A stretch of DNA of 30,436 bases from a virus: the IMG/VR virus record IMGVR_UViG_3300020202_000187, positions 1-30,436 of that record; one strand, given 5' to 3'. Under the pieces are notes generated by a model. It saw nothing but the letters and a program-made list of their open reading frames with translations, ran no database searches and was not told the DNA's origin. The first letter of the stretch is position 1. The number at the start of each line of letters is the position of its first letter. The position numbers and the translations under genes are program-made. Of the stretch, positions 3,385 to 14,331 are shown piece by piece.

Positions 3385-4125
3385 ATGCGCCGCAGCTACG
3401 AATCCCGCGAGGCCCGGTTCTCCGCGCAAGTCCTGCAGCGCTGGATCGGCGCCAAGCTGCCGACCGGCTTTGCCGCGAAGGCGGCCGAGAAGGACAAGGC
3501 GGCCGAGGTGCTGATCTATGACGAGATCGGCTATTTCGGGCTGACCGCCAAGGCGTTCATGGAGAAGCTGGCAGAGGTCGGTTCCGGCCCGCTGACCGTG
3601 CGGCTCAACTCGCCGGGCGGCGACGTGTTCGATGGCCTGGCGATCTACAACGCGCTCAAGGCGCGCGCCGAGCCGGTGACCGTCCATGTGGACGGCATCG
3701 CGGCCTCGATCGCCTCGGTGATCGCGATGGCGGGCGGCAACGTCATCATGGCCGAGCAGTCGATGATGATGCTGCACAATTGCTGGGGCCTGGTGATCGG
3801 CAACCGGCACGACATGCTCGAAACCGCCGCGGTCATGGAGAAGATCGACGGCCAGATCGCCGACACCTACGCGCGCAAGAGCGGCAAGAAGGCGCCGGAG
3901 ATGTCGGCCGTGATGGACGCCGAGACCTGGTACACCGCCGAGGAAGCGGTTGACGCCGGGCTGGCCGACGAGATCGCCAAGGCGCCGAAGATCGAGGACA
4001 GCATCGCGCAGGAAATCGCCTATGCAGCCGCGGCCGAGGAAGTGAAGCGGCTGGCCGCGCTGGCGGCGTCCGAGCACGACACCCGCATGCGCCGCCTGCG
4101 CCTCGCCGAGGCCGAGGCGGCCTGA
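3385..4125 (+). CDS. ClpP-like (S14) prohead maturation protease
   Basis: Head maturation serine protease of the ClpP/S14 fold, which removes the scaffold-like N-terminal part of the capsid protein during prohead assembly. Recognisable elements are VRLNSPGGDVFDGLAIYNAL (72-91), GIAASIAS with catalytic Ser108, MMMLHNCWG with catalytic His131, and a later acidic residue near D178 ahead of WYTAEEAVDAGLADEI. Length (246) fits phage ClpP-type proteases. A good site (CAGAGGAGTGACC) precedes ATG at 3385, partly inside the portal stop region. The gene lies directly before the major capsid gene, the standard arrangement when the capsid carries an N-terminal delta domain. The last ~40 residues are Ala/Glu/Arg-rich and probably helical. 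Confidence 0.95.
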   Translation: MRRSYESREARFSAQVLQRWIGAKLPTGFAAKAAEKDKAAEVLIYDEIGYFGLTAKAFMEKLAEVGSGPLTVRLNSPGGDVFDGLAIYNALKARAEPVTVHVDGIAASIASVIAMAGGNVIMAEQSMMMLHNCWGLVIGNRHDMLETAAVMEKIDGQIADTYARKSGKKAPEMSAVMDAETWYTAEEAVDAGLADEIAKAPKIEDSIAQEIAYAAAAEEVKRLAALAASEHDTRMRRLRLAEAEAA

Positions 4126-4130
4126 CCTGA

Positions 4131-4174
4131 GATCCCGCTTAGCCGCGGGTAGCCCGATAGCCCTTGGGCAAGGC
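4131..4174 (+). promoter_or_regulatory. Two-hairpin leader element A before major capsid gene
   Basis: Non-coding element in the 95-base gap before the major capsid gene. It contains a hairpin CCCGC-TTAGCC-GCGGG (4134-4149) followed by AGCCCTTGGGCAAGGC (4159-4174). The same 16-mer, preceded by a different hairpin around the same TTAGCC (CCGGC-TTA-GCCGG), occurs at 12856-12897 ahead of the major tail protein gene. The stem bases differ between the copies while pairing is kept, pointing to a selected RNA structure. A third possible stem, GCGCC-GGAC-GGCGC, follows at about 4181-4194. Possible roles are mRNA stabilisation, processing or translation enhancement for the two most abundant virion proteins. 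Function is inferred. Confidence 0.55.
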
Positions 4175-4220
4175 GACGCAGCGCCGGACGGCGCCGCATC
4201 CCATTGATGGAGCCTACCCC

Positions 4221-5438
4221 ATGAAGTCCAAGCAGCTGCGTGAGCAGCGCGCGAAGCTCGTCGCAGATGCGCGCGCCCTGGTTTCCGGCGAGGCCCCGAC
4301 CGCCGAGCAGAAGGCCAAGTTCGACGAAATGATGGGCCAGGTCGACGCCATGAAGGCGGACATCGACCGCCTGGAGCGCCTGGAGCGCGAGGAGGCCGAG
4401 AGCCTGGAGGACATGCGCGCCGCGGCCGACCGCAAGGGCACCGACCCCGAGCAGGAGAAGGAGCGGCGCGAGTTCCAGGAGCAGACCTTCGCTGCCTATC
4501 TGCGTCACGGCCCGAGCGGCATGGACGACAAGCAGCGCGCCGAGTTCCAGCGCCGGTTCAAGGCCGCGCAGTCGGGCGGGGTCGCCTCCGAAGGCGGCTA
4601 CACCGTGCCGAGTGTCTTCATGCAGCGCATGGAGCGGGCGCTGCTCGACTTCGGTGGCATGTTCAGCGCCGGCTGCGAGATCATCACCACGGACTCGGGC
4701 AACGAGATCCTGATGCCGATGAACGACGACACCTCGAACGAGGGCGCGCTGATCGGCGAGAACCCGGCCAGCGCATCGGAGCAGGATGCGAGCTTCGCGG
4801 CCGTGACCTTCCGCGCCTACACCTACACGTCGAAGCTGGTGAAGGTGTCGAATCAGCTGCTGCAGGACAGCGCCGTCGATGTCGGCTCCATGCTGGCTGG
4901 TATGCTCGGCGAGCGCATCGCCCGCGGCGTGCACCGCCATCTGACGGTCGGTGACGGCGCGGCCAAGCCGGCCGGCGTGGTCACCGGTGCAACCTCGGGC
5001 GTCAGCGGCGCGAGCGCCGCTGCGGTGACCTTCGACGAGCTGATCGACCTGAAGCATTCGGTCGACCCGGCCTACCGCAACGGCGCGCGGTTCATGTTCA
5101 ACGACACCACGCTGCGCGAGATCACGCAGCTGAAGGACGGCCAGGGCCAGTACCTGTGGCGTCCGGGCGTGCCGCTGGTCGGTGCGCCGGACACGATCAT
5201 GAACGACCCCTACACCATCAACCAGCACATGGCGACGATGGCGTCGAGCGCGAAGTCGATCCTCTACGGCAACTTCCGCAAGTACATGATCCGGCGCGTC
5301 AGCGGCGCGCTGGTGATGCGCCTCAGCGAGCGCTACGCCGAGCTCAATCAGACGGCGTTCGTTGCGTTCCAGCGCTGGGACGGCGGCATCGTCGACGCCG
5401 GCACCCACCCGATCAAGTACTTCCAGAACGCCGCCTGA
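4221..5438 (+). CDS. Major capsid protein (HK97 fold)
   Basis: HK97-type major capsid protein, 405 residues. Residues 1 to about 85 are a strongly charged coiled coil (MKSKQLREQRAKLVADAR..., DIDRLERLEREEAESLEDM) matching the delta/scaffold domain cut by the adjacent protease. The core begins near SGGVASEGGYTVPSVFMQRM and includes MNDDTSNEGALIGEN, the FRAYTYTSKLVKVSNQLLQDS stretch and a C-terminal RRVSGALVMRLSERYAELNQTAFVAFQRWDGGI, all typical of the family. I start at ATG 4221, preceded by TGGAGCC at a proper distance; an upstream in-frame ATG at 4164 lies inside the structured leader and would add an unlikely Arg/Pro-rich extension. The long leader with a conserved element suggests special control of expression. 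Confidence 0.95.
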   Translation: MKSKQLREQRAKLVADARALVSGEAPTAEQKAKFDEMMGQVDAMKADIDRLERLEREEAESLEDMRAAADRKGTDPEQEKERREFQEQTFAAYLRHGPSGMDDKQRAEFQRRFKAAQSGGVASEGGYTVPSVFMQRMERALLDFGGMFSAGCEIITTDSGNEILMPMNDDTSNEGALIGENPASASEQDASFAAVTFRAYTYTSKLVKVSNQLLQDSAVDVGSMLAGMLGERIARGVHRHLTVGDGAAKPAGVVTGATSGVSGASAAAVTFDELIDLKHSVDPAYRNGARFMFNDTTLREITQLKDGQGQYLWRPGVPLVGAPDTIMNDPYTINQHMATMASSAKSILYGNFRKYMIRRVSGALVMRLSERYAELNQTAFVAFQRWDGGIVDAGTHPIKYFQNAA

Positions 5439-5472
5439 TCGGCCGCAACAGCCTCTCCCATAGGAGATCACG

Positions 5473-5934
5473 ATGCTGAAGAACCTGAGCAAGGACGTGA
5501 AGATCGTCCGCCTCAAGCCGGACGCGTCCGGCTGGACCGTCGCGGCCGGCACGTCGAACGTCGCCAGCGACATCATCGACATGGCCGGCTTCGATGCCGT
5601 CCAGTTCATGGTCGGCTTCGGCGCCATCACCTCCGGCGCCGCAACGTCGATCAATGTGCAGCAGGGCGCGGTGTCGACCCTGAGCGATGCGGCCGACCTG
5701 GCCGGCACGTCGATCACGGTTGCCGACACCGACGACAACAAGGTGGCGGTCACCGAGATCATCCGGCCGGCCGAGCGCTATCTGCGGCTCGAGATCCTGC
5801 GCGCGACGCAGAACTCGGCGGTGGACTTTGCGCTCGCGCTGCTCTACGGCGCCCGCAATGTGCCGGTGACGCACGACTCCGCGACCGTGATCACGCCCGA
5901 GGTGCACAACACCCCGGCTGAAGGCACGGTCTAA
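5473..5934 (+). CDS. Unknown virion-type protein after capsid gene
   Basis: A 153-residue protein of unknown function directly following the major capsid gene, with a strong ribosome site (TAGGAGATCACG-ATG). The sequence is rich in Val, Ala, Thr and Asp and looks all-beta (for example DAVQFMVGFGAITSGAATSINVQQ and RYLRLEILRATQNSAVDFALALLYG). It has no signal peptide or membrane segment. Position and apparent abundance-type expression suggest a head decoration protein or another minor head component, but no motif proves that. The conserved-looking phrase RYLRLEILRATQNS resembles small phage proteins found next to capsid genes, which I cannot name. Confidence 0.7.
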   Translation: MLKNLSKDVKIVRLKPDASGWTVAAGTSNVASDIIDMAGFDAVQFMVGFGAITSGAATSINVQQGAVSTLSDAADLAGTSITVADTDDNKVAVTEIIRPAERYLRLEILRATQNSAVDFALALLYGARNVPVTHDSATVITPEVHNTPAEGTV

Positions 5935-5960
5935 TCACCCTGAGCTGAGCGAGGCCGACC

Positions 5961-6452
5961 ATGATCCGCTTTTTGAAGCAACTGGCCGTGGCCGGCTTCG
6001 CCTCGCTGGCGCTGCTGCTCGGCTTCCTGTTCACCGAGCCGGGCAAGTCGTTTGCCCAGAACGTCGCCTGCTACATGACGCAGGGCGGCGCGGCCTGGAC
6101 GGCCGGCTCGGGCTGCACACTGACCGTGGCGTCGGGCGGCACGCTGGCGATCGCCAGCGGCGGCGCCTTCACGATCAACGGCTCGTCGGTGCTGATCGCG
6201 CGCGGCTCGACTGCGCTCGACGGCTCAAACCCGACCTACATCACCACCGGGTTGACCACGATCTCGGCCTGCACGGTGATGAAGCGCGGCAGCGCGGCGC
6301 CGACCGACCTCGTGTCGACGGTGCTGATCACGCACGGTGGCGCCACCGGACAGTTGATCCTCTACGCCTGGCGGCATACCTCGGCCAGCGTGACCACCTA
6401 CACGGCGAGCACCGCGACTGAGCTCGTTGACTGGATCTGCGGCGGCTCGTGA
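5961..6452 (+). CDS. Secreted beta-rich protein with signal peptide
   Basis: A 163-residue protein with a clear N-terminal export signal: basic MIRFLKQ, hydrophobic LAVAGFASLALLLGFLF, then a likely cleavage site after SFA-QN near residue 31. The mature part is Gly/Ser/Thr/Ala-rich and apparently beta-structured, with short repeats (TLTVASGGTLAIASGGAFTI) and two Cys pairs (CYMTQ, SGC, SAC, ICGG) that could form disulphides outside the cytoplasm. A phage virion gene would not normally be exported by Sec, so this is more likely a host-surface or periplasmic accessory protein than a capsid part. Its stop overlaps the GTG of the O-antigen ligase-like gene, so the two are probably co-translated and may act together. 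Function unknown. Confidence 0.75.
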   Translation: MIRFLKQLAVAGFASLALLLGFLFTEPGKSFAQNVACYMTQGGAAWTAGSGCTLTVASGGTLAIASGGAFTINGSSVLIARGSTALDGSNPTYITTGLTTISACTVMKRGSAAPTDLVSTVLITHGGATGQLILYAWRHTSASVTTYTASTATELVDWICGGS

Positions 6453-7519
6453 GCTTGGAGGGGCGTACCGCCGCCCTGGTGCTCGTCGCCTCCCTGGCGT
6501 TCTGGCCGTGGTTCAGCAATGCCGCGGTAGCGCCTCGGTGGGCAGTGCTGTCGGTCGGCGTCCCGGTGCTGCTGTGGTCGGTTCGGCCGCAGCTGCTGTC
6601 GCCGGCGGGGGTGATCGGGGCGGCCTTCCTCTCCTGGGCCGCCCTGTCGCTCGCCTGGACGCCGGTGTTCTGGTACGGCGCCGGCGCGCTGTGGCAATGG
6701 CTGCTGCTGGCCGGCCTGTTCGTGATCGGCGCCGAGCTGCGCACGCTGCGGCCGGTCTGGATCGCGGCCGGGCTCGGTATGTCGGTCTCGGGCGCCATCG
6801 CGCTCGCGCAACTGCTGGGCTGGCAGGAGGTGCCATCGGTCAACGTGCCGGCCGGGCTGTTCGCCAACCGGAACGTCATGGCCGAGGCCGCTGGGCTGGT
6901 CTGCGTCGGCCTGGTGGCGCACCGGCTCTGGTGGCTGCTGCCGGGCACCGGGCTCGCGCTGGCGCTGCCGCTGTGCCGCGGCGCGGTGCTGGGCGTGGCG
7001 CTGGCGGGCATCGCCTGGCTGTGGAGCCGGGCGCGCGTGGCCGCGATCCTGCTGGTGCCGATCCTGGTGCTGGGCGTGGCGTTCTCGGCCTCGGGCCGCT
7101 GGCATTCGGTGCGCGAGCGGCTGGACATCTGGCACGACGCCTTCGCCGGCATGACCTGGGCGGGCAACGGCGTCGGCTCGTTCTACGTGCAATTCCCCGC
7201 CGAGGCGCGGCGGCACGACATGGTGAACGGTCGGCCGACGCAGGCGCATTCCGAGCCGATCGAACTGCTCTTCGACCACGGGCCCGGCGCGCTGCTGCTG
7301 TTCGGCCTGGTCATCCTGGCGCTGCGCGGGAGAGACGATGCGGCACGATACGTCCTCATCGCCGGGCTCGGCATGGCGCTGGTGGGTTTCCCATTGCGAA
7401 TGCCGCTCACTGCCGCGCTTCTCGCGCTGGTGGCGGGCCGGCTTTGCCGCGGTGGGGCTGATCTTCGCGTGGCAGACCCTGTGGGCCGAACGCTGGCACA
7501 CGGACGGGCTCTGGCATAA
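6449..7519 (+). CDS. O-antigen ligase/polymerase-like membrane protein (Wzy_C/WaaL type)
   Basis: A polytopic membrane protein of 356 residues with roughly nine or ten hydrophobic segments. It carries hallmarks of the O-antigen ligase/polymerase superfamily: GLFANRNVMAEAAGL (136-150), a CRG arginine motif (R177) in LALPLCRGAVLGV, then a periplasmic-loop-like region RERLDIWHDAFAGMTWAGNGVGSFYVQF ending in AHSEPIELLFDHGPGALLLFG with H267. Such proteins move or join surface glycans from undecaprenyl carriers at the periplasmic face. GTG at 6449 overlaps the previous stop. From about residue 330 (nt 7436) the sequence (RLCRGGADLRVADPVGRTL...) no longer looks like this family, while frame +1 continues with a hydrophobic helix and TPR-like tail, so a +1 frameshift, natural or mutational, may end the true product. 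Likely a lysogenic-conversion gene. Specific substrate unknown. Confidence 0.85.
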   Translation: MSLEGRTAALVLVASLAFWPWFSNAAVAPRWAVLSVGVPVLLWSVRPQLLSPAGVIGAAFLSWAALSLAWTPVFWYGAGALWQWLLLAGLFVIGAELRTLRPVWIAAGLGMSVSGAIALAQLLGWQEVPSVNVPAGLFANRNVMAEAAGLVCVGLVAHRLWWLLPGTGLALALPLCRGAVLGVALAGIAWLWSRARVAAILLVPILVLGVAFSASGRWHSVRERLDIWHDAFAGMTWAGNGVGSFYVQFPAEARRHDMVNGRPTQAHSEPIELLFDHGPGALLLFGLVILALRGRDDAARYVLIAGLGMALVGFPLRMPLTAALLALVAGRLCRGGADLRVADPVGRTLAHGRALA

Positions 7520-7844
7520 CCGATTCCCCTCGGCTCACTTTGCCGCGACGCTCGGCCCGCATCTGCCGCACGCGCAGAAGCAGCCGGGCAACCTGGTGCT
7601 GACCTACGGCGACGGCCTGCCGCCCGACATGGCGATCGCCATCCTGACCGGCGTGCTGGCGGTCGACCCCTATGCGTCGGACCTGATCGGCGCGCTGGCC
7701 CGGGTGCAGTTCCGAGCCGGGCAGGTCGGCACCGCTGCCGAACTTGCCGCGCGCGCCTACGAACTGTCGCCGCACAACCCGGCGCTGCGCGATCTCGCCC
7801 AAGCCTACGGCCTCGAGCGCGATTGGATGGAGACGAAACGATGA
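7338..7844 (+). CDS. TPR-like C-terminal partner of the O-antigen ligase-like protein
   Basis: Reading frame +1 relative to the ligase-like gene, overlapping it by 182 bases. From about nt 7443 the product looks genuine: a hydrophobic helix (FAAVGLIFAWQTLW), then an extracytoplasmic-type stretch and a TPR-like pair of helices, DPYASDLIGALARVQFRAGQ and AELAARAYELSPHNPALRDLAQAYG. Many O-antigen ligases end in just such a helix plus TPR tail, so this may be the displaced C-terminus of that protein. The first ~35 codons after ATG 7338 resemble a shadow of the ligase frame, although GGGAGAGACG before this ATG is a good ribosome site. Alternative starts are GTG 7452 or fusion by +1 shift near 7436-7443. 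The stop overlaps the next start (ATGA). Start uncertain, tail real. Confidence 0.65.
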   Translation: MRHDTSSSPGSAWRWWVSHCECRSLPRFSRWWRAGFAAVGLIFAWQTLWAERWHTDGLWHNRFPSAHFAATLGPHLPHAQKQPGNLVLTYGDGLPPDMAIAILTGVLAVDPYASDLIGALARVQFRAGQVGTAAELAARAYELSPHNPALRDLAQAYGLERDWMETKR

Positions 7845-8224
7845 GCTTTGTTCAGCGCCTCGTGGTCGACATCACCGTCGACGCCTCGGGCGATGCGACG
7901 GTTTACTCCGACCAGATCCAATACGGCCGCATCAGCCAAATCCGCTACGTCAAGCACGGCACAAACCCGTTCGACAACACCGTCGATTTCACCGTGACGG
8001 TCGAGGCGACCGGAGAGGCGGTGTGGTCGCAATCGAACGTGACGGCGAGCGCCACAATCGCGCCACGCCAGGCTACGCACGACGTGCTCGGGGCGGCTTC
8101 GCTCTATGCCGCCGGCGGAGAGCCGGTCGAGGACAAGATCGCGGTGGCGCGCGACCGCATCAAGATCGTGGTGGCCCAAGGCGGCAATGCCAAGCAGGGC
8201 ACGCTTCACATCATCCTGAGCTGA
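7841..8224 (+). CDS. Conserved phage protein, probable virion component
   Basis: A 127-residue, apparently all-beta protein beginning MSFVQRLVVDITVDASGDATVYS. Phrases such as DFTVTVEATGEAVWSQSNVTASATI, APRQATHDVLGAASLYAAGG and DRIKIVVAQGGNAKQGTLHIIL are typical of a small protein often found after capsid genes in siphophages; I know of no assigned function. I start at ATG 7841 because it forms an ATGA overlap with the preceding stop and has TGGAGACG upstream; an in-frame ATG at 7823 lies inside the upstream gene. No signal peptide or membrane segment. A minor head or head-fibre role is possible by position only. Confidence 0.75.
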   Translation: MSFVQRLVVDITVDASGDATVYSDQIQYGRISQIRYVKHGTNPFDNTVDFTVTVEATGEAVWSQSNVTASATIAPRQATHDVLGAASLYAAGGEPVEDKIAVARDRIKIVVAQGGNAKQGTLHIILS

Positions 8225-8302
8225 TCGGCGCGGCAACGTGGTGAAGATGGCCCAGCGTGGTGCCGATGGGCGCGTGACGGGGGTGGCTTAGGAGAACTCG
8301 AA

Positions 8303-8617
8303 ATGGCAATCCAGAATTTGCATTTCAACGACCAGATCAGTCACGGCCGCATGCTCCGCCGAGGGTTGCAGATGCTGGAGGAAGGCCGAGACGGCCTCAT
8401 TGATCTGGTCGCCACCATGACGTTGATGATCGACGGCGACGGCTCCGACGCCGCGCACTTCGGCGAAGTGACGACCCGCTTCGGCTTCACCAGCAACGCC
8501 ATGTCAAAGGCGGCCTGGGATGAGCTGAACAGCATGCTTAGCAAGGTCAACGGCAATGGCTCGGTGAGCAACGTGCTCGCCGCCATGGATCAGGCGTTCA
8601 GCAAGTTCCGGGGATAA
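8303..8617 (+). CDS. Conserved small phage protein, unknown function
   Basis: A 104-residue acidic, mostly helical protein starting MAIQNLHFNDQISHGRMLRRGLQMLEEGRDGLIDLVATM, with a central DGDGSDAAHFGEVTTRFGF and a helical C-terminus (AAWDELNSMLSKVNGNGSVSNVLAAMDQAFSKFRG). A strong ribosome site (TAGGAGAACTCGAA-ATG) supports the start. Repeated Asn/Ser near the C-terminus suggests a flexible linker. It lies within the accessory block of the virion operon, and similar short proteins occur in phage structural regions, so a minor structural role is the most likely reading. No catalytic motif is visible. Confidence 0.7.
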   Translation: MAIQNLHFNDQISHGRMLRRGLQMLEEGRDGLIDLVATMTLMIDGDGSDAAHFGEVTTRFGFTSNAMSKAAWDELNSMLSKVNGNGSVSNVLAAMDQAFSKFRG

Positions 8618-8623
8618 CGCCTC

Positions 8624-9367
8624 GTGGCACTGACCGACGATCTTATCTCGTATTGGAAGCTCGACGAGGCGAGCGGCAATGCGCTTGACGCGCACGGCAG
8701 CAATACGCTCACCGACACCAACACCGTGGGGGCGGCCACAGGCAAGATCAGCGGCGGACGGGATTTTGAATCGAGCGCCAGCGAGTATTTCACCATCGCC
8801 GACAATGCCAGTCTATCGACGGGCGACATCGACTTCACGTTTTCTTTGTGGGTGAACGCCGAGTCCCTGGCCGCCAATGCAGACATAATCAGCAAGGACA
8901 CGGCCACTTCACCGAACCGGGAATACATCATCGGCTTTGCATCGGCGACGCCAAGGTTTCGCTTCATCCTGTTTGACGGCGCTTCGGCAACCATTCTGTC
9001 GGCAAACAACCTCGGCGCCCCGTCAACTGGCACTTGGTATTTCATCGTTGCCTGGCATGACTCGGTCAACAATACGATGAACATCCAGGTCAACAACGGC
9101 GCTGTCGACAGCGTCTCGCACACGACGGGAACCGACGATGGCGCGGCGCCCTTCCGCATCGGTGCGCGCGGCAACACTGCCGAGTTCTTCGACGGCATCG
9201 TTGACGAGGTCGGCTTCTGGAAGCGAGTGCTGACCAGTGACGAGCGGGCCAGCCTCTACAATAGCGGCAATGGGCTGGCGTATCCGTTCACCAGCGGCAC
9301 CACCGTCGCCCGCCTTGTCAACGACGCCCCCTACCCGTTTCGTAGACCAATCATGGTCGCGGCCTGA
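8624..9367 (+). CDS. LamG/concanavalin-like jelly-roll protein
   Basis: A 247-residue protein with a LamG-type (concanavalin A-like) beta-sandwich over about residues 5-220. Signature pieces are LISYWKLDEASGNALDAHGSNTL at the N-terminus, RDFESSASEYFTIADN, DFTFSLWVNAESL, TGTWYFIVAWHDSVNNTMNIQVNN and the closing FDGIVDEVGFWKRVLTSDERASLYNSGNG. Such domains bind glycans or proteins and are used on phage heads and tails. The start is GTG 8624, six bases after the previous stop, with GGGGAT upstream. Its place among head-proximal genes rather than at the tail tip suggests a capsid decoration or head-fibre role, or work with the glycan-modifying gene upstream. Ligand unknown. Confidence 0.85.
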   Translation: MALTDDLISYWKLDEASGNALDAHGSNTLTDTNTVGAATGKISGGRDFESSASEYFTIADNASLSTGDIDFTFSLWVNAESLAANADIISKDTATSPNREYIIGFASATPRFRFILFDGASATILSANNLGAPSTGTWYFIVAWHDSVNNTMNIQVNNGAVDSVSHTTGTDDGAAPFRIGARGNTAEFFDGIVDEVGFWKRVLTSDERASLYNSGNGLAYPFTSGTTVARLVNDAPYPFRRPIMVAA

Positions 9368-9437
9368 TCTATCTGCGCGCGAGCGGCGCCAGTCTTCGGC
9401 TCGGAATCAGACCATCGCCTGAACGAAGGGGCACACC

Positions 9438-9905
9438 ATGGCGCTTTATCACTCGAACAACGACCTCGCTGGCACGAAGCAGGCCATCAGTTCGTCCTAC
9501 AAGACGCTCCTCGTGCTGAAGGCCGCGACGGCGACGCTGCGGCGCGCTTGGGTATATGACGTGCTGATCGGTACGCTCGGCACGCCGGCCGATACCTCTT
9601 ACCAGTTCGACATTTCGCGCCAGACCGCAGACGGCACGGCGACGGCGGTCACGCCGCTGGCGCTCGATCCGGCCGATGCGGCGTCCGATACGGTTGGCGC
9701 CGCGAATGCGACGGCGGAGGGCACCATCACGGCCACGTCGAGCGTGTTCAACATCGGCATCAACCAGCGCGCCTCATACCGGTGGGTTGCGGCGCCGGGT
9801 TCCGAGCTGGTCATCCCCGCGACCAACCTGAACGGCCTTGCCCTGCGCTGCCTGTCGGCCAGCGGCACCGCAGTAGCGACCGGCGGCATGTACCACAAGG
9901 AGTAA
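9438..9905 (+). CDS. Unknown virion-type protein
   Basis: A 155-residue protein with a strong ribosome site (CGAAGGGGCACACC-ATG). It is Ala/Thr-rich and apparently beta-structured: KTLLVLKAATATLRRAWVYDVLIGTLGTPADTSYQFDISRQTADG, then many Thr/Ala repeats (NATAEGTITATSSVFNIGINQRASYRW) and a C-terminal ALRCLSASGTAVATGGMYHKE. The pattern resembles small phage structural proteins that follow LamG or capsid-decoration genes. There is no signal peptide. Function cannot be assigned; by neighbourhood it is part of the particle or assists it. Confidence 0.7.
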   Translation: MALYHSNNDLAGTKQAISSSYKTLLVLKAATATLRRAWVYDVLIGTLGTPADTSYQFDISRQTADGTATAVTPLALDPADAASDTVGAANATAEGTITATSSVFNIGINQRASYRWVAAPGSELVIPATNLNGLALRCLSASGTAVATGGMYHKE

Positions 9906-9909
9906 CGCC

Positions 9910-10170
9910 ATGATGCGGCGCCCCGGCGGCTACGGAATCCTTACCCAACCGGAAGGGGCGCCGCAGGAACACGACACTTTCAGTTGCTCGCACTGCAACC
10001 GCGTCGTGCGGGTCGAGGCACGGCAGCGAGCCGACGACATCGGCGGCTTTTGCTCCGTCTGCGCGGGCCTAATCTGCCCGTCCTGTGTTGGAAAAGGTTG
10101 CGATCCGCTCGAGGAAAAGCTGCGGCGCATCGAGGCTCGAGCGGACGTTCGGAGAAGCTACGGCTTCTGA
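9910..10170 (+). CDS. Zinc-binding treble-clef/ribbon-type phage protein
   Basis: An 86-residue protein with eight cysteine/histidine ligand candidates arranged as CSHC (about residues 26-29) and then CSVCAGLICPSCVGKGC (48-64), the spacing of a small zinc ribbon or treble clef. The N-terminus MMRRPGGYGIL and the C-terminal charged helix (PLEEKLRRIEARADVRRSYGF) match a small conserved protein of phage structural operons whose role is not known. Zinc binding is inferred from the cysteine spacing. It follows the previous gene by 4 bases and is probably translated with it. It could stabilise a virion interface or act in assembly; nucleic acid binding is an alternative. Confidence 0.75.
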   Translation: MMRRPGGYGILTQPEGAPQEHDTFSCSHCNRVVRVEARQRADDIGGFCSVCAGLICPSCVGKGCDPLEEKLRRIEARADVRRSYGF

Positions 10171-10184
10171 ATTAGGGGCGTCGC

Positions 10185-11084
10185 ATGACCTGGGTCATCT
10201 ACCCGTCCAGGACGGAGCCGGTCCTTTCTGCGCCGGAGACCGTCACGGCGGATCGGTGGCGCCAGCCGCTGAGTGAGCCGGTGCGGCGCCGCGTACTTCC
10301 GGTCGCGCTCATCGTTGGCGCGCTGTTCGCCCCGCCGGAGCAGGCGCCCGAGACGGTCACAGTTGACCGTTGGCTGATCCCGCTGTCGGAGCCTGTACGG
10401 GTCAAGCCGGCGCTGCATGCAAGTCGACAGCAGGTATTCGCGGTCGACCAAGGCGCGCTGACGCAGCCGGAAAGCGTGACGCTCGACCGCTGGCAACAGC
10501 GATTGAGCGAGCCGGTGCGGCTCAAGGTTGGGCTGCGGCCCGATCTGCAACAGGCGTTCACGGTCGACCCGACCGCGTTGACGGCGGCGGAAACGGTTTC
10601 CGTCGACCGCTGGCTGATCCCGCTCGCCGAGCCGGTCAGGATTGCGCCAGCACTGCGCAGCGCGGCGCAGCAGTTCTTTGCCGGCGACGTTCGGCCGCTG
10701 GCCGCCGCCGAGACGATCACCGCCGACAAGTGGCATAGACCGCTTTCGGAGCCGGTGCAGTTCCGCGCGTTACTCACGGCGCAGCAGCAGGCGTTCGCGA
10801 TCGATCAACGGGCGCTGACCGAGCCCGAGGCAACGACGGTCGACCGCTGGTTCGCCGCGCTCAACGAGCCGGTGCGCTACCGGGTTTTAGTCACGGCACT
10901 GAATCCGGCGTGCTTCACGCTGGAATTGCCGCAGCCGACACAGCCGAGCGTACCGACCGAAGCGACGATCACGGACGCGGCGGTAACGACAGCGACTCAT
11001 GTCGATGCCCTGGTCACCACGGCCACCCTGACCGACGCGCTGGTCACTACCGCGACGCTCACCGAAACCATCGCGCCGAGCTGA
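10185..11084 (+). CDS. Six-repeat protein with ~40-residue DRW-LSEPVR units
   Basis: A 299-residue protein made almost wholly of six tandem units of about 40 residues. Each has the core ETVTxDRWxxPLSEPVR, with the DRW (or DKW) at residues 23, 61, 101, 141, 181 and 220, followed by a stretch ending in QQxFAxDxxALT. The C-terminal 40 residues switch to a short repeat, DALVTTATLT, in about three copies (TDAAVTTATHV, DALVTTATLT, DALVTTATLT). No signal peptide, membrane segment or enzyme motif is seen. The regular unit suggests an extended or fibrous protein, perhaps a head fibre or a length-variable spike. Related repeat proteins appear in some phage structural regions without assigned roles. Repeat number should vary among relatives. 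Confidence 0.8.
   Translation: MTWVIYPSRTEPVLSAPETVTADRWRQPLSEPVRRRVLPVALIVGALFAPPEQAPETVTVDRWLIPLSEPVRVKPALHASRQQVFAVDQGALTQPESVTLDRWQQRLSEPVRLKVGLRPDLQQAFTVDPTALTAAETVSVDRWLIPLAEPVRIAPALRSAAQQFFAGDVRPLAAAETITADKWHRPLSEPVQFRALLTAQQQAFAIDQRALTEPEATTVDRWFAALNEPVRYRVLVTALNPACFTLELPQPTQPSVPTEATITDAAVTTATHVDALVTTATLTDALVTTATLTETIAPS
10233..10910 (+). repeat. Six coding tandem repeats of ~117-120 bp
   Basis: The DNA under residues 17-242 of the repeat protein contains six in-frame units with spacing of 114, 120, 120, 120 and 117 bases between DRW/DKW codons. Units are diverged at the DNA level but keep the core codons for DRW and SEPVR. This points to old duplications retained by selection on the protein rather than a recent expansion. 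Confidence 0.8.
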
Positions 11085-11400: not shown

Positions 11401-12033
11401 ATGATCGGATCGCTCGCCCTGGTGACGGCCGCGGCCGACGAGCTGCCGATCGACCTCGACCGCTTCAAGTCGCAGGCGCGGATCGACAGCACGACCGAGG
11501 ACGATCTGCTGCGCGCCTACTTGAGCGCCGCCATGTCCTACCTCGACGGCAAGGACGGCATTCTCGGCCGCGCGCTGATGACCCAGACCTGGGATTGGCG
11601 GCTTGACGACTGGTGCCCGGCATTCCGCGACCTCGGCAACGGCATCTATGGCGCCGAGGCGCCGCTGCCGCCGCTGCAGAGCGTCACCAGCATCAGCTAC
11701 ATCGACGCGAACAACACGACGCAGACCTGGGCCTCGAGCAACTATCAGGTCGACATCTACTCGACGCCGGGCCGCATCTGCGTCGCGCCGGCCGCGCAGC
11801 TCCCGGCCCTCTACGGCTCGGGCAAGCTCAATCAGGTGACGATCCGGTTCATCGCCGGCTACGGCAGCAACCCGACCGACGTGCCCGAGGACATCCGCCA
11901 CGCCATCGCGTTCATCGCCTCGCACTGGTACGAGCGGCGCCTGCCGATGGAGTTCGGCGCCGGCCAGGCGATCGACATCGGCCTGACCGCCGATGCGCTG
12001 CTGCTCAAGTACCGGATGAAGATCTTCGGATGA
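11401..12033 (+). CDS. Head-tail connector protein (HK97 gp6-like)
   Basis: Adaptor protein that binds beneath the portal and prepares the head for tail attachment. The 210-residue product shows the gp6-like pattern: ELPIDLDRFKSQARIDSTTEDDLLRAYLSAAMSYLDGKDG (residues ~16-55), LMTQTWDWRLDDW, the proline-rich PLPPLQSVTSISYIDANN, then a beta region and the C-terminal helix PEDIRHAIAFIASHWYERRLP. Length and motif order match the family. It starts eight bases after the previous stop with TGAGGGCGGC upstream, and its own stop overlaps a 23-codon ORF in ATGA fashion. Confidence 0.92.
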   Translation: MIGSLALVTAAADELPIDLDRFKSQARIDSTTEDDLLRAYLSAAMSYLDGKDGILGRALMTQTWDWRLDDWCPAFRDLGNGIYGAEAPLPPLQSVTSISYIDANNTTQTWASSNYQVDIYSTPGRICVAPAAQLPALYGSGKLNQVTIRFIAGYGSNPTDVPEDIRHAIAFIASHWYERRLPMEFGAGQAIDIGLTADALLLKYRMKIFG

Positions 12034-13346: not shown

Positions 13347-13766
13347 ATGCTGAAGCGCCTCCTCGGCGCGGCACTCGCCGCGCTGCTCCTGCTGCCCATT
13401 CAGCTCGGCGCCGCCGTGCTGACGGTCAACGACACGGCCGACACCGGCGTCGAGATGACGCTGACTGCGGCCGGCGTATCCGGCGACAGCTTCGCCAACC
13501 CGGACGACCACCGGACGATCTTCGTTGTGACCAAGGGCGGCAGCGGGTCGGTGACCGTGACCATCACGCCAGCGACCACGCAAGTCCTGGTGCCGGGCGT
13601 CGGCCTGCTCGACAACCCGAACGGCGGCGGCTCGGTGAGCGCCGGCACGACCAAGATTTTCGGGCCGTTCCCGACCAGCTTCAACGACAGCAACGGCCGG
13701 GTGGCGGTGACCTACAGCACCACGACCTCGGTCACGGTCAACCCGTTCCGGGTGCCGCGCCAGTGA
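13347..13766 (+). CDS. Secreted beta-rich protein in tail operon
   Basis: A 139-residue protein with a clear signal peptide: MLKRLLGAALAALLLLPIQLGAAV, with likely cleavage near residue 21-22. The mature part is all-beta, with LTVNDTADTGVEMTLTAAGVSGDSFANPDDHRTIFVVTKGGSGSVTVTITPATTQ and an Ig-like ending. It resembles phage structural beta-sandwich domains but carries an export signal, which is odd between the tail tube and chaperone genes. The ATG at 13347 has CGGGAGACCCCC upstream; an in-frame ATG at 13227 lies in the tail gene and is ignored. Its stop overlaps the GTG of the next gene. Role unknown; surface exposure in the lysing or lysogenic cell is inferred. Confidence 0.8.
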   Translation: MLKRLLGAALAALLLLPIQLGAAVLTVNDTADTGVEMTLTAAGVSGDSFANPDDHRTIFVVTKGGSGSVTVTITPATTQVLVPGVGLLDNPNGGGSVSAGTTKIFGPFPTSFNDSNGRVAVTYSTTTSVTVNPFRVPRQ

Positions 13767-14122
13767 GCGAGAAAACCGCCAACCCGGTCCGTGGCGAGGT
13801 CACGATCGACCTGCCGGGACATGAGCGCTACGTGCTCCGGCCGACCTTCGACGCGCTGGTGCAGATCGAGGCCGAGCTCGGCGAGAAGATCATCCCGCTC
13901 GCCATGTCGCTTGCCGGGCTCCGCGAGGCTGCGGTGATTATCCACCGGTGCGGCCAGGCCGCTGGTGGCAAGCTGACCTTCGCCCAGATCAAGGAACTGG
14001 TCATGCAGGCCGGCCTCGTGGCGCTGCTCCCGCATCTGCGCGCGATGCTCAACTTGGCGCTGACGCCTGCCGACCCAAACGGGGAAGCGGTGACGGATCA
14101 GGTGACGACACAGACGACCTGA
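13763..14122 (+). CDS. Tail assembly chaperone, upstream frame (GTA gp10-like)
   Basis: A 119-residue protein of the GTA gp10-like family, in the position of lambda G: immediately after major tail genes and before the tape measure. Motifs are GEVTIDLPGHERYVLRPTFDALVQIEAELGEKIIPLAMSL and AAVIIHRCGQAAGGKLTFAQIKELVMQAGLVALLPHLRAML. GTG at 13763 overlaps the previous stop. Near its end, the codons for Pro-Asn are read from a canonical slippery heptamer (14074-14080), which would direct some ribosomes into the -1 frame and fuse this protein to the chaperone extension ending at 14331, as lambda does to make GT. Chaperones of this type bind the tape measure during tail assembly. Confidence 0.85.
   Translation: MSEKTANPVRGEVTIDLPGHERYVLRPTFDALVQIEAELGEKIIPLAMSLAGLREAAVIIHRCGQAAGGKLTFAQIKELVMQAGLVALLPHLRAMLNLALTPADPNGEAVTDQVTTQTT
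14074..14080 (+). other. Slippery heptamer CCCAAAC for -1 ribosomal frameshift
   Basis: The heptamer CCCAAAC is read in the chaperone frame as C-CCA-AAC, the exact X-XXY-YYZ arrangement required for tandem -1 slippage. Slipping gives CCC-AAA-CGG and continues to the stop at 14331. The site is 14 codons before the zero-frame stop (14120-14122), so the long product would have about 189 residues (106 plus 83). Location inside the tail chaperone gene matches the known conserved frameshift in long-tailed phages. No strong downstream stem-loop was evident by eye. Confidence 0.75.
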
Positions 14123-14331
14123 CCTGGCACCGCTTTCTCGAAATGGCCGGCGCGATGCGCATGCCGACCGACGTGTTCTGGAGCACCACGCCGCGGGAAT
14201 TCATCTCCATGGCGGACGGCTTCGCGGCCAGCAAGGGCGCCAAGCGGGACGGCGGCGCCAAGGCCAAGGCGCCGACGCGGGCGGAAATGCAGGACTGGAT
14301 CGAGAAGGAGAAGCGCGGGGAGCGGTTCTAA
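14080..14331 (+). CDS. Tail assembly chaperone, -1 frame extension
   Basis: Reading frame -1 relative to the gp10-like gene, from the slippery site to the TAA at 14331 (83 codons). The product carries DLTWHRFLEMAGAMRMPTDVFWSTTPREFISMADGFAASKG, the motif set of the small GTA-type tail chaperone family (W..L...L...P..FW..TP.E....  pattern), then a charged KAKAPTRAEMQDWIEKEKRGERF. The first conserved residues (LTW) lie upstream of the first ATG (14143), and no ribosome site precedes that ATG, so synthesis as a frameshift fusion is favoured over a separate 62-residue protein starting at 14143. The stop overlaps the reversed lipoprotein gene stop by 4 bases. Confidence 0.75.
   Translation, partial: RGSGDGSGDDTDDLTWHRFLEMAGAMRMPTDVFWSTTPREFISMADGFAASKGAKRDGGAKAKAPTRAEMQDWIEKEKRGERF

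Follow-up and report, generated by a model that had tools for sequence, protein, structure and literature searches.

A gene for a divergent member of the O-antigen ligase/polymerase (Wzy_C) superfamily, as judged from the encoded protein sequence, lies within the head module of a phage, between the major capsid gene and the head-tail connector genes. The window analysed here comprises 30,436 bases and consists of a single virus record (IMGVR_UViG_3300020202_000187). With somewhat better than even confidence, we favour the reading that this gene provides a phage-borne enzyme of the superfamily which is made late in infection and alters the host envelope against re-adsorption, and which may have been inactivated in the present copy.

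The left part of the window represents the packaging and head module of a siphophage, with genes for terminase, portal, a ClpP-type protease and capsid, and from position 11401 on genes for adaptor, head completion, tail terminator and tail tube follow. The right part contains a GH19 lysis-type gene and genes for a tyrosine integrase, a small HTH_17 protein, an HNH protein and an ERF recombinase. Given the presence of integrase, HTH_17 and ERF genes, the phage is temperate; the host of this siphophage would be a Gram-negative bacterium, probably a proteobacterium. The features of the capsid-to-connector interval are compiled in Table 1. As the preliminary description of this DNA had stated, a polytopic protein displaying an arginine in a CRG motif (R177) and a histidine in an AHSEP motif (H267) is encoded from position 6449 on, between the capsid gene and the connector genes.

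Table 1. Coordinates and supporting evidence for features between the capsid gene and the first connector gene of the window.
Feature	Position	Strand	Evidence
Major capsid protein with HK97 fold; bounds the slot upstream	4164..5438	+	PF05065 E=1.3e-58; phrog_10
Conserved small head-module protein	5473..5934	+	phrog_5707 E=4.5e-8; directly 3' of the capsid gene in many relatives
Head-module protein of 'QGGD..VVASGG' type, signal peptide (cleavage near SFA|QN), conserved cysteines	5961..6452	+	alignment with L016 and L017
Frame-A membrane core of Wzy_C/O-antigen ligase type, starting with GTG; R177, R224 and H267 candidate catalytic residues	6449..7436	+	
Out-of-frame end of the frame-A ORF up to the stop at 7519, not coding-like	7437..7519	+	codon-usage scores
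Frame-B continuation: end of the last membrane helix and TPR tail	7437..7844	+	TPR_19 25.2 bits (cut-off 25.0); coding score 0.43 per codon
Conserved head-module protein, likely ATG 7841 (listed ORF from TTG 7823)	7841..8224	+	relatives: 62 in IMG/VR, 8 in genomes
LamG (Laminin_G_3) protein, probably virion decoration	8624..9367	+	PF13385 E=1.5e-21
Head-tail adaptor; bounds the slot downstream	11401..12033	+	PF05135 E=1.3e-10; phrog_442

The stretch from 6449 to 7844 had been described as a single gene, but it covers two open reading frames, and the break between them had been missed. The first (frame A) extends from the GTG at 6449 to a stop at 7519 and encodes 356 residues of hydrophobic character, including both motifs mentioned above. 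The second (7338-7844) overlaps the first in another frame (frame B) and bears the TPR match. Codon-usage segmentation trained on other genes of the window assigned the coding frame to A until 7436 and, without interruption, to B from there on (7437 to about 7830). The coding score of frame B (Table 1) compares with a maximum of -0.47 per codon in out-of-frame blocks of trusted genes, and the frame-A residues past 7436 do not look coded. The whole membrane core is held by frame A and the TPR tail by frame B, with the switch located inside a stretch that, when the frames are joined, reads as one unbroken membrane helix. Ancestrally, 6449-7844 was most likely a single cistron that encoded a membrane core with a TPR tail. 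The frame break may have arisen by sequencing or assembly error, by a real mutation or, least likely, by a +1 shift. Programmed +1 frameshifting was considered in view of a CTT-TGC step at the junction and ranked last, as neither a stop codon nor, by eye, an obvious Shine-Dalgarno-like stimulator accompanies this step. Given that the tail is out of frame in the present copy, the activity of this exact copy is uncertain.

Alternatively, the cistron may consist of two genes, i.e. a complete 356-residue Wzy-type enzyme in frame A and a small TPR protein that starts within it in frame B, for instance at GTG 7452. Such an arrangement would resemble those of two bacterial relatives, one of which (L095) also stops soon after the last helix and carries no TPR tail, while the other (L128) has a TPR protein as a separate neighbouring gene. 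However, frame A is not coding-like past 7436, frame B takes over without a gap, and a start signal ahead of 7452 is not obvious by eye. We consider two genes decidedly unlikely.

The assignment of the frame-A protein to O-antigen ligases/polymerases, already proposed in the preliminary description together with a PF04932 profile search, was borne out by shuffling, pairwise comparison and shared motifs, but not by a match above the family threshold. The search did return a match (E=2.3e-5), but its 24.6 bits remained below the gathering score of 31.7 bits. The Wzy-beta polymerase of phage D3 also falls under this cut-off, with 21.9 bits and thus a lower score than the window protein, indicating that superfamily membership is not delimited by this cut-off. 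For the read-through protein Wzy_C no longer appeared in the Pfam list, and no match to the Wzy-type protein was obtained in PHROG and NCBIfam. As composition bias is strong (27-49 bits), the protein was compared with shuffles in which local hydropathy was kept, using two home-made family profiles (10 and 29 sequences), each scored with and without bias correction. In these four profile comparisons the real score was matched by 0, 0, 1 and 0 of about 3,000 shuffles, with Z values of 5.0 to 11.4. The earlier 10-sequence profile gave a clearer score than the broader 29-sequence profile, against which the bias-corrected score was 6.0 bits and was reached by 1 of 3,000 shuffles. Pairwise local alignment resulted in Z values of 12.3 and 16.1 against the Wzy_C proteins L095 and L128, both encoded in alphaproteobacterial genomes, and the motifs GLF.N.N, G.G.G.F, AH(N/S) and (F/Y)PLR are common to all three proteins. 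The bias and the borderline profile scores might suggest a polytopic membrane protein that is unrelated to Wzy_C and resembles it in composition only. This is scarcely plausible given that shuffles of the same local composition fall short of the pairwise scores and that agreement with Wzy_C proteins extends to the level of motifs.

In the O-antigen ligase, two arginines bind undecaprenyl pyrophosphate and one histidine is proposed to activate the acceptor (PMC10920833). R177, R224 and H267 of the window protein fall in conserved columns of the profile alignment and would be equivalent to Arg 191, Arg 265 and His 313 of the solved WaaL (GT121) enzyme. The D3 polymerase also has a histidine at the position of H267, and ligase and polymerase are therefore indistinguishable by these key residues. 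The single-sequence structure model of the read-through protein (mean pLDDT 48, pTM 0.24) was of too low confidence to judge whether the protein adopts a WaaL-like GT-C fold, and a sequence search of solved structures retrieved designed repeat proteins alone, with E above 0.3.

The cistron is tightly fitted between its neighbours. At the 5' end, its GTG shares bases with the stop codon of the upstream gene (GTGA, 6449-6452); at the 3' end, the stop of frame B shares bases with the ATG of the following gene (ATGA, 7841-7844). No match to a sigma-70-type promoter or to a terminator was detected in 3900-9500, although in a GC-rich genome such a search has little power. The overlaps and the lack of such a match make late co-expression likely, and the gene is probably expressed late. 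Third-position GC content (GC3) is 0.92 and 0.86 for the two parts of the cistron, inside the range of the other genes of the phage. Both the overlaps and the phage-range GC3 speak against a mis-join of recent date and favour joint expression with the late head genes. An assembly chimera, in which bacterial DNA had been joined into a phage contig, could be suspected from the single record with no sibling found and from the regional GC content (72% vs 67%), but with start and stop overlaps with phage genes at both ends and with third-position GC in the range of the phage we regard it as highly improbable.

On the reading that we favour, the Wzy-type protein would be translated by coupling from the late structural transcript and inserted into the inner membrane, with the TPR tail as a periplasmic domain of the same protein. 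Its substrate would be a glycan linked to undecaprenyl pyrophosphate at the periplasmic face. The two arginines would act on the diphosphate and the histidine would activate the acceptor, and O-units would be joined or transferred. The surface changed in this way may hinder adsorption of sibling and related phages, as proposed for the seroconversion polymerase of D3. Coupling of the gene to those of the capsid region would imply late, lytic-phase remodelling of the envelope by a glycan ligase or polymerase. The position in a late operon does not fit lysogenic conversion unless another promoter exists.

Loci of relatives were collected by scanning with the gene that follows the cistron (7823-type), which yielded 62 IMG/VR loci and 8 loci from genomes. 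These loci belong mostly to alpha- and betaproteobacteria, plus one planctomycete bin. A frequent gene order is capsid, 5473-type, 5961-type, 7823-type and adaptor, and the cistron of the window separates two head-module genes that in most relatives are direct or near neighbours. The distance from the capsid gene end to the start of the 7823-type gene is mostly about 0.9-1.4 kb in measurable relatives, with outliers up to 2.6 kb, and amounts to 2.4 kb in the window. Apart from the window's own, no forward ORF with at least six strongly hydrophobic segments was present in 84 loci, and Wzy_C was absent from 12 records found by way of terminase or capsid genes.

Broader scans with short exact peptides revealed no close relative of the Wzy protein in 50,697 phage records (distant ones can escape such peptides), in IMG/VR (three scans, using the core, the core aligned with a bacterial relative, and the TPR tail) or in 84,980 species genomes. 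Wzy matches were remote at best in some 1,450 genomes sampled from Burkholderiales, Alphaproteobacteria, the order of a Pseudolabrys bin and the class of Pseudoduganella. The only phage record retrieved with three bacterial Wzy_C queries was a faecal contig of 11.7 kb without annotation. The gene is rare in what was sampled, by scans that use short peptides and sampled genomes. The present case illustrates that enzymes of this kind can diverge beyond the thresholds of Pfam, NCBIfam and PHROGs, and their number in phages may therefore be underestimated.

The absence of the gene from all sampled relatives, the lack of a close homologue anywhere searched and the frame break near 7436 would also be expected of a decaying passenger. 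Captured once from a bacterium and now being lost, such a gene would serve no function at present, and the break would be a true mutation. We weigh this explanation seriously but consider it rather unlikely: the catalytic core is whole, codon use is like that of the phage's own genes, the few-base overlaps with neighbours at both ends suggest a settled gene, and the lone break could also be a sequencing error.

The window protein has motifs and the R177, R224 and H267 columns in common with bacterial PF04932 proteins (WaaL, CAZy GT121; polymerases, GT122-GT135), the nearest bacterial Wzy_C proteins found displaying about 25-38% identity in aligned stretches. However, the bacterial genes reside in polysaccharide clusters, whereas the window gene resides in a phage head operon. 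The phage O-antigen polymerases that we found described form one group, D3 and its relatives, with VarioGold distant, and are viewed as lysogenic-conversion genes. D3 Wzy-beta (with PMG1, phi297 and VarioGold VG_p25) is likewise a phage-borne membrane enzyme of Wzy_C type from a temperate phage, but has no pairwise similarity to the window protein (Z -0.3). D3 wzy-beta and VarioGold VG_p25 are found near lysis/integrase genes on the opposite strand, and the D3 conversion genes are located outside the virion genes, with both wzy-beta and iap on the other strand. In contrast, the window gene is placed amid head genes and co-directional with them, overlaps both neighbours, and has a TPR tail and a frame break. 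As to the D3-type companions iap and oac, no acyltransferase match was obtained among the subset of window proteins scanned, and iap is too short for detection. The location of the window gene is unusual and differs from that of the two described phage cases, and in the open-access literature searched we found no description of a glycan ligase or polymerase gene between capsid and connector genes.

Most Pfam matches of 74 slot proteins from relatives were to virion, nuclease or decoration families, indicating that glycan genes are a minority in this slot. In one locus (L017), genes for a methyltransferase and an MptE-like protein are inserted between the capsid and the 5961-type gene. In another (L004), pyruvyl-transferase-like and MptE-like genes (8808-10138) are situated between the 7823-type and portal genes, and the MptE-like gene matches a PHROG named alpha-2,3-sialyltransferase, the name also borne by D3 orf7. 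The glycan-type genes of L004 and L017 and D3 orf7, which is annotated as a sialyltransferase and lies between capsid and adaptor genes, share with the window gene a head-module position between capsid and connector genes, but their enzymes are soluble by family, with no polytopic polymerase or ligase of the membrane among them. The earlier statement that phage glycan genes usually lie elsewhere is weakened by D3 orf7 and the L004 gene. It is conceivable, though quite unlikely, that the capsid-connector interval serves as a swappable slot for late envelope-glycan enzymes, by which the cell surface would be changed before lysis so that new virions are not stuck, and that the exported, cysteine-bearing form of the 5961 protein acts as partner or substrate of the enzyme at the cell surface.

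The other distinct homologues of the 5961 family begin right at the 'KVYRxQGGDxxVVASGG'-like motif and have no signal; a signal peptide and added cysteines are present in the 5961-type proteins of the window, L016 (1462-1953) and L017 (7947-8495). An exported form of a virion-type protein was unexpected. In L016 no glycan gene was recognised alongside the exported form, and in L017 an unrelated one is present. This occurrence with and without a neighbouring glycan gene does not support a functional set. The secreted protein, the Wzy-type protein and the LamG protein had previously been grouped as a surface-remodelling set, a grouping that is not supported: the 5961 and 7823 genes belong to the head-module core in many phages without wzy, 5961-type genes are common in head modules, and neither wzy nor the LamG gene was found in the sampled relatives. 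For the LamG protein, with its ordinary virion-type domain, a role as virion decoration is the simplest reading.

PglL enzymes share the Wzy_C domain, and the upstream neighbour, with its signal peptide and a gene that overlaps the wzy start, could be the target of a PglL-like protein O-glycosyltransferase decorating the exported 5961 protein. This is very unlikely, as the exported form occurs in L016 and L017 in the gene contexts described above and no evidence of an acceptor site was obtained.

Several minor observations were made in relatives and elsewhere in the window. In a spring-water podovirus (L136, MW202742.1), a gene annotated as 'general glycosylation pathway protein' (1360-1785) precedes the capsid gene and lies close to a weak match to the 5961 protein. 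The capsid protein of L016 (15-1379) opens with two strongly hydrophobic, membrane-like segments. In the tail assembly chaperone region of the window (13763-14331), the usual site of programmed frameshifting in tailed phages, the coding frame shifts at approximately 14102. The protein encoded at 10185-11084 contains several degenerate repeats of the unit 'TVDRW..PLSEPVR' and has a weak tail-fibre match.
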